A stretch of DNA of 64,000 nt from Phosphitispora fastidiosa (lineage in GTDB: Bacteria; Bacillota; Thermincolia; Thermincolales; UBA2595), in assembly GCF_019008365.1 (NCBI RefSeq), contig NZ_JAHHUL010000007.1:46133-110132 (forward strand). Reading direction: 5' to 3'. Below are positions 22,997 to 61,747 of the stretch, one piece after another; positions within the stretch are counted from its first letter, which is position 1; every line of letters begins with the position of its first letter. The notes beneath the pieces are model-generated. The model had not been told where the DNA came from, searched no databases, and saw nothing but the letters and a program-made list of their open reading frames with translations. Made by a program: the position numbers and the translations under genes.

Positions 22997-23022
22997 CTAA
23001 AACTCCCCCCAAGTATAAGTTC

Positions 23023-23077
23023 GGCTAAAGTGCCTGGCTAAAATGCCTCGCGGCTAAAGTGCCTGGCTAAAATGCCT
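23023..23077 (-). repeat. Four 13-bp tandem repeats in the transporter leader
   Basis: GGCTAAAGTGCCT and GGCTAAAATGCCT alternate at 23023, 23036, 23052 and 23065, making a duplicated 26-bp pair with a 3-bp spacer. They lie 27 to 81 bases before the transporter start. Just upstream (23095-23110 on the minus strand) is a perfect AAAAGGAGGTGAGG with no start codon after it. Confidence 0.65.
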
Positions 23078-58035: not shown

Positions 58036-58692
58036 GTGAAGTTAGCTTCTCAAAAAAGGCTTTCACTTGGAGTGGTTTGTTTTATCACTGCATTTGGATT
58101 GGCTGCCTTTATCACTGACCAAAATTTGCTGTTAGTATGGGTTATTGGGATTGCTCTGGGATTTGTTTTATACCGGTCGGGTATCTGCTTCGCTTCTGCC
58201 TTCAGGGATATCTTTCTCTTCAGGGATTTCAGTATGGCCCGGGTGGTGATTATCTTCACAACTGTTTCCTTCGTTGGTATTGGCATAATGCAGGTTTACG
58301 CTGTCACCAGGGGTTTACCGGTAACCGGAAGGATTTATCCGGTGGGCTTTCACAGCGCTGTAGGAGGGGTCCTGTTCGGGTTCGGAATGGTCCTGGCAGG
58401 TGGTTGTGCCAGTGGAACTTTGCAGCGTATCGGAGAGGGGTTCATCCTTTTCTGGGCAGTAGTCCTGGGGATTGTAGCCGGTTCAGTATTGGGAGTCTAT
58501 CATTTTTCATGGTGGGCAAACAGTTTTTTCAGTGTTGATGCAGTATTTATACCTGATTTAATCGGCTGGATACCCAGTCTAATACTAACCCTGGCGCTGC
58601 TGGGAGGGCTGTATATGATTACAGTGACAGTCGAAAAGAGAAAAAACAATAATAAAGATTTGGCTGCAAAGGAAGTGGATAGCAATGGCTGA
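58036..58692 (+). CDS. YeeE/YedE-type sulfur transporter, N-terminal half protein
   Basis: A protein of 218 residues with five to six helices, the size of one half of a full YeeE. It has RSGICFASAFRDIFLFRDF near residue 47 and AGGCASGTLQRIGEG near 117, the two Cys-bearing motifs of YeeE proteins. It likely acts with the half protein at 58946. It overlaps the tusA-like gene that follows by eight bases. The GTG start is 12 bases after the RDD gene. Confidence 0.82.
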   Translation: MKLASQKRLSLGVVCFITAFGLAAFITDQNLLLVWVIGIALGFVLYRSGICFASAFRDIFLFRDFSMARVVIIFTTVSFVGIGIMQVYAVTRGLPVTGRIYPVGFHSAVGGVLFGFGMVLAGGCASGTLQRIGEGFILFWAVVLGIVAGSVLGVYHFSWWANSFFSVDAVFIPDLIGWIPSLILTLALLGGLYMITVTVEKRKNNNKDLAAKEVDSNG

Positions 58693-58906
58693 AAAGAAAC
58701 TGGATATGCTTGGAGAGGTCTGCCCGGTGCCGCTTTTGACTACCCAGAAGATAATCAGCGAGATGAAATCCGGTGATGTCCTTATAGTTGAAACAGACTA
58801 TAACAGGACGGTGCGTAACATCATCAAGTGGTGTGATGACAGGGGATATGCTTTTGATGTTGAGGATAAGGATAACGGGGTGTGGTTGGTTACTATTAAT
58901 AAATGA
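58685..58906 (+). CDS. TusA-like sulfur carrier
   Basis: A protein of 73 residues with the persulfide Cys in EVCPVPLLTTQK, plus the TusA/SirA fold pattern (MKSGDVLIVETDYNRTVRNIIKW). It lies between two YeeE half genes and presumably receives sulfur from the transporter. It is different from the TusA at 45191, so the genome has at least two such carriers. Confidence 0.88.
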   Translation: MAEKKLDMLGEVCPVPLLTTQKIISEMKSGDVLIVETDYNRTVRNIIKWCDDRGYAFDVEDKDNGVWLVTINK

Positions 58907-58945
58907 AAGTAAGAAATGAAAGTAAGAAATGAAAGGTGAAGCTAA

Positions 58946-59482
58946 ATGAACACAGGGCGAGCCTTTACAAGGCGCATACTTACCGGTTACTGGCCTTTTT
59001 GGACGGGAGGAGCGCTGCTGGCTATTTTAAATATTCTATTGGCGGTTTTCGATAAACCGTGGGGAATTTCCGGTAACCTGGCTCAATGGGGTTTAGCGGT
59101 CTGCAAAGCAGCCGGAGGACATCCTGAAACCTGGTTTTATATTTGGGATGAGCCTCTTAGACTGGATTTTGCAGACCTGCTGTTCAGCAGGGGAACTGTC
59201 CTTAACCTTGGTCTAATACTGGGTGTTATGCTTGCAGCGCTCTTGGCTGCAGAGTTTCGCATTAAAAAGGTGAAGTCGCCACGGCAGCTTGCTCTTGGAA
59301 TAGCAGGTGGGCTGCTGATGGGTTATGGAGCACGACTGGCTCTGGGCTGCAACATCGGGGGACTGGTAAACGGGATTGCTTCCCAGTCCCTGCATGGCTG
59401 GGTGTTCGGCCTGTTTCTGATATTTGGCGCCTGGGCCGGAAGCGTGTTTATGAAATACATTGTATCCAAAAACGGCAGTTAG
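58946..59482 (+). CDS. YeeE/YedE-type sulfur transporter, C-terminal half protein
   Basis: A protein of 178 residues with four to five helices. The block GYGARLALGCNIGGLVNGIASQSLHGW near residue 130 is the second Cys motif of YeeE transporters. Together with the half at 58036 it would make a complete transporter. The 40-bp leader has GAAAGTAAGAAAT repeats and a GAAAGGTGA ribosome binding site. Its end overlaps the convergent lysR gene by four bases. Confidence 0.82.
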   Translation: MNTGRAFTRRILTGYWPFWTGGALLAILNILLAVFDKPWGISGNLAQWGLAVCKAAGGHPETWFYIWDEPLRLDFADLLFSRGTVLNLGLILGVMLAALLAAEFRIKKVKSPRQLALGIAGGLLMGYGARLALGCNIGGLVNGIASQSLHGWVFGLFLIFGAWAGSVFMKYIVSKNGS

Positions 59483-60387
59483 CAGAAGGGCGTCCCGGGG
59501 CCCATAATAAAGCGGATAAACCTCTTGGCGATATTATTCAGACCTTTCTCGCTTTTATATACAAGCTGGTAATTAAACTTTACTGATTTTCCTTCAATCG
59601 TAAGGGGATGAATAGTCCCGGTGCGGATTTCCTTTTGGGTTGCTATCCGGCTGCAGATAGACAGTCCGAGCCCTGCTTCCACAGTTGATTTAATAGCGCT
59701 GGTGCTGCTCATTTCGGTGACAATATTCAGATCACTCAGTTTCATACCCCATGAAGTGATAGCCTCTTCAAAGATCTGGCGCAGGCCCGAACCCTGTTCC
59801 CGGATTATAAAGGGGGCTGTTTTTATTTCCTCCAGAGTTATTTCGGTACGGTCGACCCAGGGGGGATTTGCAGGTGCAATCACCAGGAGTTCGTCATTTG
59901 AGATGGGCTGCGAAACCAGGTCGTCCGGCAGCCCTGATATGGGGTTTTCCAAAAGAGCCAGGTTAAGCTGGTTGTCATTAAGCAGAGCCAGGATTCTCTC
60001 GGCATTATGTACCTCGAGCTTAATCTGGGCCTGGGGATACTTCTCTTTAAAGGTCCAGATGCCGCAGGGCAGCGCTGAATTGCCTATTGTAGAACTGGCC
60101 CCGATAATGAGTTTTTGATTCTCGCTCTGCAGCATACTGTCTATTTCATTTTCCAGCTTATCATGGAGCTTAAGGATCTCCTTGGCATATTTATATACCA
60201 TTTCACCCACCGCAGTTAGAGTGACACCGCTGGAGCTGCGGTTAAAGAGCTGCATCCCATAGTAATCCTCAAGATAGTGAATTTGAGCACTAACGGCGGG
60301 CTGGCTCAAATGAAGCAGTTTTGCTGCCTTGGAGAAACTTTTTACCCGGGCAACTTCACAGAACATTTCAAAGTGGGGGAGGTTCAT
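59479..60387 (-). CDS. LysR family transcriptional regulator
   Basis: A protein of 302 residues. The N-terminal winged HTH (FEMFCEVARVKSFSKAAKLLHLSQPAVSAQI) is followed by a substrate-binding domain with periplasmic-binding-type folds. CysL/CysB-like regulators of sulfur assimilation have the same layout. Its 3' end meets the YeeE gene and its 5' end is divergent from the cytochrome gene, so it may control either or both. The effector is unknown. Confidence 0.88.
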   Translation of the reverse strand: MNLPHFEMFCEVARVKSFSKAAKLLHLSQPAVSAQIHYLEDYYGMQLFNRSSSGVTLTAVGEMVYKYAKEILKLHDKLENEIDSMLQSENQKLIIGASSTIGNSALPCGIWTFKEKYPQAQIKLEVHNAERILALLNDNQLNLALLENPISGLPDDLVSQPISNDELLVIAPANPPWVDRTEITLEEIKTAPFIIREQGSGLRQIFEEAITSWGMKLSDLNIVTEMSSTSAIKSTVEAGLGLSICSRIATQKEIRTGTIHPLTIEGKSVKFNYQLVYKSEKGLNNIAKRFIRFIMGPGTPFC

Positions 60388-60709
60388 CTTTTTGGACTCC
60401 TTATTGTTATATTTGCTATCATAATCATATTTACTCTAATTATAAAGCAATAACAACTATCATTCAATACAGCTATAACCAATTCCTATACCGGTATAAG
60501 AAATTGTGTGCAGGAAAATAGACAGAGCATGAATAAATATTTGTAATAAGACAACGTAAGACAGTAGAAGACAGCATGTGACAACAAATGACATCAATAG
60601 ACGACGTGAAGCAAACAAGAGTCGCAGAGCAAATGGTGAAAGTGAATACAAATATAAACATAAGCATGCTAGCAGCTATCTGAACAAATATTTATGAGGA
60701 GGGGTTATC
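60388..60709. other. Divergent intergenic region between lysR and the cytochrome gene
   Basis: No gene is supported. It contains inverted-repeat-rich AT DNA at 60400-60500 (lysR promoter side), the 10-bp-phased GACA array at 60550-60603 and the AGGAGGGG ribosome binding site of the cytochrome gene. No clear sigma-A or sigma-54 promoter was found on the plus strand. Confidence 0.5.
60550..60603 (+). promoter_or_regulatory. GACA direct-repeat array phased at exactly 10 bp
   Basis: GACA begins at 60550, 60560, 60570, 60580 and 60590, and GACG at 60600. A further GACA at 60521 is 29 bp earlier. The bases between are not conserved apart from purine-rich TAAG/TGTG ends. The array starts about 160 bp before the cytochrome start codon. 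Confidence 0.55.
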
Positions 60710-61531
60710 ATGATAGAAAAAACAGCAATGAAAGACGGTTTAACCAGAAGAAGATTCCTTATTGGTGCCGGAGCCCTGGCTACCGGAGTCCTCGCCGGCG
60801 GCGTTGCCGGCTGCACCGGCTCCACAGGTTCCACTGGAAGTTCCGGCACTAATACCGGAAATGCAGCAGAGGCAAATGCCATACCGTGGCAGTATAAGAA
60901 GCTGGATGTCGAGGCTGTGAGAAAGCTGGGGTATGATAATTATTACAAAGATGGCTGTATGTACGGAGTTGCTGCAGCAATAATTGAAACCTTAAGGGAA
61001 ACCACCGGGGGACCATGGAATACGATTCCCATGGATATGTTTGCTTATGGAGAGGGCGGCGCTTTCGGCTGGGGAACTCTCTGCGGAGCCCTGAACGGGG
61101 GACTTGCGATGATTAACCTGGCTGCCGGAAAAAATGCCGATCTGGGAAATGACCTGATTGGATGGTATACTGAAAATCCGTTTCCTTCAGACAAACACGA
61201 AGCTTACTGCAAATTTAACAATCAGATTACAACGGTATCCAAATCACCTCTGTGCCATGCTTCGGTAACCAGGTGGACCGAGGCTGCGGATGTCCGGGTT
61301 GGCACTGATGAAAGGAAGGACCGCTGTGCCAAACTTACCGGTGATACTGCTGCAAAGGTAGCCGAACTCCTTAATAAGGCCCTTGAAGGCCAGTATACGG
61401 CTACATTTAAACCCACGGCAGACTACATTACATGTATGGGCTGTCACCAGGGCGCCGACAGTACTCTGGATAACGAGCAGGGTAAGATGAATTGTGTCAC
61501 CTGCCATGAAGACCATACAAAGAAGAGCTGA
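60710..61531 (+). CDS. Tat-exported split-Soret-like cytochrome c
   Basis: A protein of 273 residues. The twin-arginine signal TRRRFLIGAGALATGVLAGG is followed by a Cys (possible lipoprotein) and a Gly/Ser/Thr-rich linker. The middle has GCMYGVAAAIIETLRE and GEGGAFGWGTLCGALNGG, which resemble the split-Soret cytochrome / C_GCAxxG_C_C family. Two C-terminal heme-binding motifs CMGCH and CVTCH lie near residues 243 and 263. It should be a dihaem electron carrier outside the membrane. Substrate unknown. AGGAGGGG precedes the ATG. Confidence 0.8.
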   Translation: MIEKTAMKDGLTRRRFLIGAGALATGVLAGGVAGCTGSTGSTGSSGTNTGNAAEANAIPWQYKKLDVEAVRKLGYDNYYKDGCMYGVAAAIIETLRETTGGPWNTIPMDMFAYGEGGAFGWGTLCGALNGGLAMINLAAGKNADLGNDLIGWYTENPFPSDKHEAYCKFNNQITTVSKSPLCHASVTRWTEAADVRVGTDERKDRCAKLTGDTAAKVAELLNKALEGQYTATFKPTADYITCMGCHQGADSTLDNEQGKMNCVTCHEDHTKKS

Positions 61532-61576: not shown

Positions 61577-61747
61577 ATGTTAGGGTTGGGATTACCTGAA
61601 ATAATGCTTATCCTGGTTATTGCTCTGGTCATTTTCGGGCCGGGGAAACTGCCAGAAATCGGGAAGGCATTTGGCAGAAGCATAAAAGAATTTAAACAGG
61701 CAACCTCAGAGGCTGCCGATGTAATAATGAAAGATTCCCCAAAATAA
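61577..61747 (+). CDS. tatA: Twin-arginine translocase subunit TatA
   Basis: A TatA of 56 residues: one membrane helix ([24 protein letters not shown]), the [10 protein letters not shown] hinge, then an amphipathic [15 protein letters not shown] helix. It lies 45 bp after a Tat substrate gene, which suggests a dedicated export pair. tatC is not in this window. The start is chosen for GGGAGG upstream. Confidence 0.92.

Follow-up and report, generated by a model that had tools for sequence, protein, structure and literature searches.

Genes and Elements at the Locus

The GACA array occupies part of a 322-bp divergent intergenic region in the 64-kb stretch of Phosphitispora fastidiosa DNA analyzed here (hereafter, the window), with a lysR gene on its left and a cytochrome gene on its right. 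The features of this region and its flanks are as follows.

59479–60387, minus strand: LysR-type regulator; 262 bits against NCBIfam NF040786 ("selenium metabolism-associated"; cut-off 250)
60439–60467, minus strand: lysR promoter, TTGAAT-17-TATAAT, from a consensus scan
60478–60507, no strand assigned: conserved palindrome ACCAATTCCTATACC/GGTATAAGAAATTGT, an inverted repeat inside the most conserved block (60460–60510, 80% invariant)
60510–60518, plus strand: GCAGGAAAA, at about the putative −35 position, with a presumptive role there
60532–60537, plus strand: candidate −10, AATAAA here and GATAAT and AATAAT in relatives, deduced from the alignment
60550–60603, plus strand: GACA array; GACA five times, at 60550, 60560, 60570, 60580, and 60590, and GACG at 60600; strict 10-bp period
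60604–60696, plus strand: remainder of the leader, rich in A and poor in U, with little conservation up to 60640 and no stable structure predicted
60697–60704, plus strand: conserved ribosome-binding site AGGAGGGG
60710–61531, plus strand: split-Soret-like cytochrome c with a C_GCAxxG_C_C motif; PF09719, 46 bits; NF047622, 158 bits (below the cut-off of 400)
61577–61747, plus strand: tatA, the next gene downstream of the cytochrome

For NF040786, another protein of the genome scored higher than the LysR-type regulator of the window. Upstream of lysR, two half-length YedE/YeeE-type membrane proteins are encoded on the plus strand; this split transporter occupies 58036–59482, with a small TusA/SirA-like frame (58685–58906; named by eye) between its two genes. 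A split YedE has been described for archaea (PMC5322559).

Phase and Periodicity of the Array

Reading of the sequence confirmed the central claim of a first-pass annotation of this DNA, namely five GACA words and a GACG at the positions listed above, in a strict 10-bp register. A further GACA that it had counted at 60521 is present but does not belong to the array, being out of phase and not conserved in the genus alignment. The autocorrelation and shuffling check proposed there was performed. Autocorrelation of 60540–60609 gave z = 4.7, 3.5, and 3.3 at lags 10, 20, and 30, with dips at lags 9, 11, and 19. In dinucleotide shuffles of the 322-bp intergenic region (n = 2,000), no 4-mer exceeded three units at periods of 6–15. 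When the local A-rich 151 bp were shuffled in the same manner (n = 20,000), four units appeared in 15 shuffles and five units in 0 of the 20,000, and the maximum in whole-window shuffles (n = 15) was four units. The array was the sole run of five identical 4-mers at periods of 7–14 in the 64-kb window. The GACA array is not a product of chance.

The locus had also been described as the third phased array of this DNA, with a design shared by all three. Neither description was supported, since 4-mer runs and autocorrelation revealed no other strict 10-bp array in the 64-kb window. The remaining autocorrelation peaks corresponded to a 13-bp tandem repeat (58897–58935), a tandem repeat at 23022–23077, and coding or AT-rich sequence. 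The 13-bp repeat comprises three copies of TAAGAAATGAAAG and is flanked by the small TusA-like frame and the second YedE-like gene.

Several other origins were rejected. A coding origin was discarded because the 10-bp period is not divisible by 3, and a 31-codon frame from 60588 is a chance occurrence; the relatives lack its start codon, so that the frame exists in this species only. A-tract curvature was discarded because the array in this species contains no A-tract longer than three. A slippage minisatellite was likewise excluded, as whole units are not alike: spacer identity between units was 0.38, 0.25, and 0.47, compared with 0.32, 0.33, and 0.41 expected from composition. Because the spacers are no more alike than composition predicts, the GACA words were not recently copied from each other and have been kept by selection.

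Conservation within the Genus

Conservation was assessed across three species, all of one genus (the window species and two other genomes). Gene arrangement is unchanged in the two relatives, their cytochromes are 94% and 91% identical to that of the window, and the intergenic regions of the three species align well. Loss of the period in close relatives had been named beforehand as a result that would speak against the array; within the genus, the period is retained in an unchanged register, with five units in one relative and four units in the second. Units 1–4 are present in all three species without indels, unit 5 in two of the three, and unit 6 (GACG) in the window species only. Directly downstream of units 1–4, the genus alignment contains a gap of ~22 bases.

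Across units 1–4, all 16 core columns were invariant in the three species versus 9 of 24 spacer columns (hypergeometric p = 3e-5). In units 1–3 of all species, GACA follows an AA, so that an AA dinucleotide recurs every 10 bp; this AA is lost in units 4–5. Outside the palindrome block, invariance was 74% at 60511–60549, 62% in the array (60550–60589), 16% at 60590–60640, and 79% at 60681–60709.

Position Relative to the Promoter and Leader

A consensus scan of the region found no consensus promoter for the cytochrome gene. The aligned AATAAA, GATAAT, and AATAAT near 60532, together with the shared GCAGGAAAA, suggest a transcription start near 60544, which would place the array at about +7 to +60. 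A promoter downstream of the array is disfavored because the block that follows is the least conserved of the region. Since the array comes after the conserved promoter block and before the unconserved leader, its probable location is at the start or immediately past it, a position that speaks more for repression or fine tuning than for classical upstream activation.

The leader has an A content of 0.46–0.49 and a T content of 0.16–0.18 in the three species, and T just upstream is 0.28–0.32. A known structured RNA leader was rejected, as the leader matched no Rfam family and that of the window was predicted to be unstructured (fold z about 0 to +1.7).

A Separate Palindrome as Candidate LysR Site

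The array had been judged not to be a LysR-type site, and our analysis agrees. A LysR-type operator (an interrupted dyad of the T-N11-A type) was rejected for the array, which is a direct repeat, whereas the dyad stands apart at 60478–60507 and recurs without the array. A second locus in all three species again carries the palindrome sequence CTATACCGGTATAAG, with GCAGGAAAA at the same place after it; there it is unaccompanied by a GACA array and precedes genes for an HD-domain-like protein and a TauE/TSUP-type permease-like protein (both named by eye). These second copies, of the form CTATACCGGTATAAG-N-AAAT...GCAGGAAAA (L088 at G000:C24:44762, L083, and L093), likely represent a shared regulator site. 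On the best reading, the palindrome serves two promoters as a regulator site, probably for the divergent LysR protein, and is likelier than the array to be the LysR site. The GACA array is then best read as a further element that is specific for the cytochrome gene.

Distribution of the Array

The four-unit GACA pattern occurs at one locus per genome in all three genomes of the genus. With two mismatches allowed, the remaining matches in these genomes appeared at the control rate, and AAGACA-N4-AAGACA outside the array was located inside coding sequence only. No further intergenic site with the same core was detected in the genus genomes by this search, which would miss weaker or diverged sites. 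Outside the genus, no array was found at orthologous promoters, and different sequence precedes the cytochrome homologs there. GACA arrays at 10 bp were present in 14 of 398 genomes of a phylum sample (the three of the genus and 11 others), a frequency not far above that of the reversed control pattern; those of the 11 others were scattered in unrelated contexts. The array of the window is real, conserved, and confined to a single locus, a tandem operator-like element of an ordinary kind with unusual regularity.

In two unrelated genomes of the sample, arrays of 4–5 GACA units at 10 bp lie in phage-like regions (L059 and L069 in G031; L065 in G138), and one genome carries two nearly identical arrays of this sort.

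Comparison with Known Direct-Repeat Sites

Spo0A 0A boxes begin with TGTC and occur as tandem boxes 10 bp apart, and the 0A box TGTCGAA requires G at position 5. On the minus strand, the GACA units read TGTCTTA, TGTCTTA, TGTCTTC, TGTCACA, and TGTCATT, so that position 5 is T or A in all of them, unlike in 0A boxes. No minus-strand unit matches TGTCGAA or TGNCGAA, and a 0A-box array was therefore rejected. Elsewhere in the phylum sample, a TCGACAAA array with 10-bp spacing (L056; G247:C12:79551) resembles tandem Spo0A boxes and lies upstream of a penicillin-binding protein-like gene.

The tor boxes are decameric direct repeats. Situated upstream of torCAD, they resemble the array in that several repeated boxes mark the promoter of an operon for anaerobic respiration (PMC9239176) but differ in sequence and position, and their activator, TorR, is known. 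The RstA box TACATNTNGTTACA contains tandem TACA sites bound head to tail (PMC4117788). This box of the OmpR/PhoB family shares with the array a four-base xACA core, head-to-tail orientation, and a spacing of exactly 10 bp; it differs in having two units rather than four to six, a TACA rather than a GACA core, and a known bound protein.

Most ArcA sites in Escherichia coli contain three to five direct-repeat elements, and some are located downstream of the transcription start (PMC3798270). They are similar to the array in their tandem direct repeats, redox-related targets, and occasional position past the start, whereas their usual centre-to-centre spacing is 11 bp, their motif is another one, and more than 100 sites exist compared with one per genome here. 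The ParR centromere of pB171 likewise consists of 10-bp direct repeats (PMC9426499), with cooperative binding as a feature of ParR. It is, however, a plasmid partition site beside parM/parR, and no such genes were seen beside the array. TAACTGA repeats are also intergenic direct repeats before genes, with a possible post-transcriptional role (PMC4679880), but are heptamers that adjoin the start codon and occupy many sites per genome.

The Array as a Proposed Tandem DNA Operator

We regard the chances as about even that the array is a head-to-tail DNA operator, composed of tandem 4-bp half-sites one helical turn apart and read by a putative regulator. Four to six identical half-sites (core GACA; TGTC on the opposite strand) would be filled cooperatively, along one face of the helix, by a regulator whose DNA-binding domain is of the winged-helix or a similar type. 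Most likely, the bound array would repress the cytochrome gene or set its level by covering the start or early transcribed region, the direction being suggested by position, and this control would come on top of the divergent LysR protein acting at its own palindrome. The strict 10-bp register, the four-base core, and the head-to-tail orientation fit such cooperative winged-helix binding on one DNA face. We infer that the array works as DNA, and analogy points to a partner of the OmpR/PhoB or a similar head-to-tail type.

Like OmpR/PhoB operators, the array consists of head-to-tail direct repeats one helical turn apart, and the genome encodes proteins of this family, with at least nine strong matches to PF00486 (Trans_reg_C) and ten over the cut-off. 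None of the strong nine is encoded on the contig of the window, and no GACA-N6-GACA pair was found near the nine genes (~2.3–2.5 kb each), a search that weaker or diverged sites would escape. As none of these nine genes lies near the array or has a GACA pair in the stretch around it, the OmpR/PhoB family can be named only as a candidate for the partner. Several targets or autoregulation by the same box are usual for OmpR-type regulators, although not strictly defining. Counting against the operator, AAGACA-N4-AAGACA outside the array lies in coding sequence only, many OmpR-type sites use 11-bp spacing (PMC3798270, PMC4832192), and conservation is supported by three species of a single genus. 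If it is an operator, the array offers a clean conserved tandem site in anaerobes whose gene control is little studied.

It is also conceivable, albeit unlikely, that the array acts in RNA, with 10-nt-phased GACA words in an unstructured 5' leader recruiting an oligomeric RNA-binding protein or small RNA that sets translation or stability of the cytochrome mRNA. With a start near 60544, the array would be transcribed, the leader is A-rich and U-poor in the three species and predicted to be unstructured in the window, and occurrence at a single gene accords with a dedicated leader element. Arrays of direct repeats placed immediately before start codons have been proposed to act post-transcriptionally (TAACTGA of Beggiatoaceae; PMC4679880), whereas the GACA array is 105–160 nt from the start codon and does not adjoin it. 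The lack of an Rfam match also speaks against an RNA element, and a strict 10-base register without indels is better explained by DNA helical phase than by flexible RNA. The array could instead form part of the binding region of the LysR regulator, as an extended activation site 43 bp downstream of the LysR-like palindrome in the same intergenic region; this is highly improbable, given that LysR-type sites are dyads, that the array is a direct repeat, and that the palindrome with GCAGGAAAA recurs at the second promoter in all three species without it.

We assign equally little probability to a structural role, in which phased AA/CA steps would bend DNA or favor the open complex or early elongation without a specific binding protein. 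The AA ahead of GACA in units 1–3 of all species fits this idea, but units 4–5 lose AA and keep GACA, A-tracts longer than three are absent from the array in this species, and bending requires less than the selective conservation of a four-letter word. Somewhat less improbable, though still quite unlikely, is a neutral relic or coincidence, such as an old mobile-element end kept through the closeness of the species. The arrays in 14 of 398 phylum genomes, the genus included, are mostly in unrelated and some in phage-like contexts and are not much more frequent than the reversed control, in keeping with a relic. Against it, the cores have not followed the spacers in diverging to background, and neither a mobile element nor a terminal repeat was seen next to the array. 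The tandem operator remains our preferred reading.

Selenium Context of the Cytochrome Gene

Paralogs of the cytochrome, encoded in the genome of the window and in that of one relative, contain an in-frame TGA exactly at the position of the C_GCAxxG motif cysteine; a conserved stem-loop is predicted directly after it, the arrangement of bacterial selenoproteins. These TGA paralogs are as follows.

L022: G000:C5:135485–136267
L026: G000:C18:29824–30612
L023: G002:C19:129812–130600

All three species have SelB and tRNA-Sec, and the paralogs are probable selenocysteine cytochromes. One species lacks a TGA paralog among its matches and keeps the array, which indicates that the array does not depend on the paralog.

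LysR_Se proteins have been linked to selenium use, and HrsM, an archaeal member, acts as a repressor of the Cys forms of selenoproteins in the presence of selenium (PMC5322559, PMC11097638). By analogy, the cytochrome of the window may be a Cys-form gene under LysR_Se-type selenium control. It is rather improbable that a single-gene, 10-nt-phased leader element read in RNA by an oligomeric protein provides a second layer of control on this Cys-form cytochrome beside the selenium-type LysR. The array-bearing gene being a Cys form with probable Sec paralogs in the genome, the locus, if the array is an operator, could make a bacterial Sec/Cys isoform switch testable.
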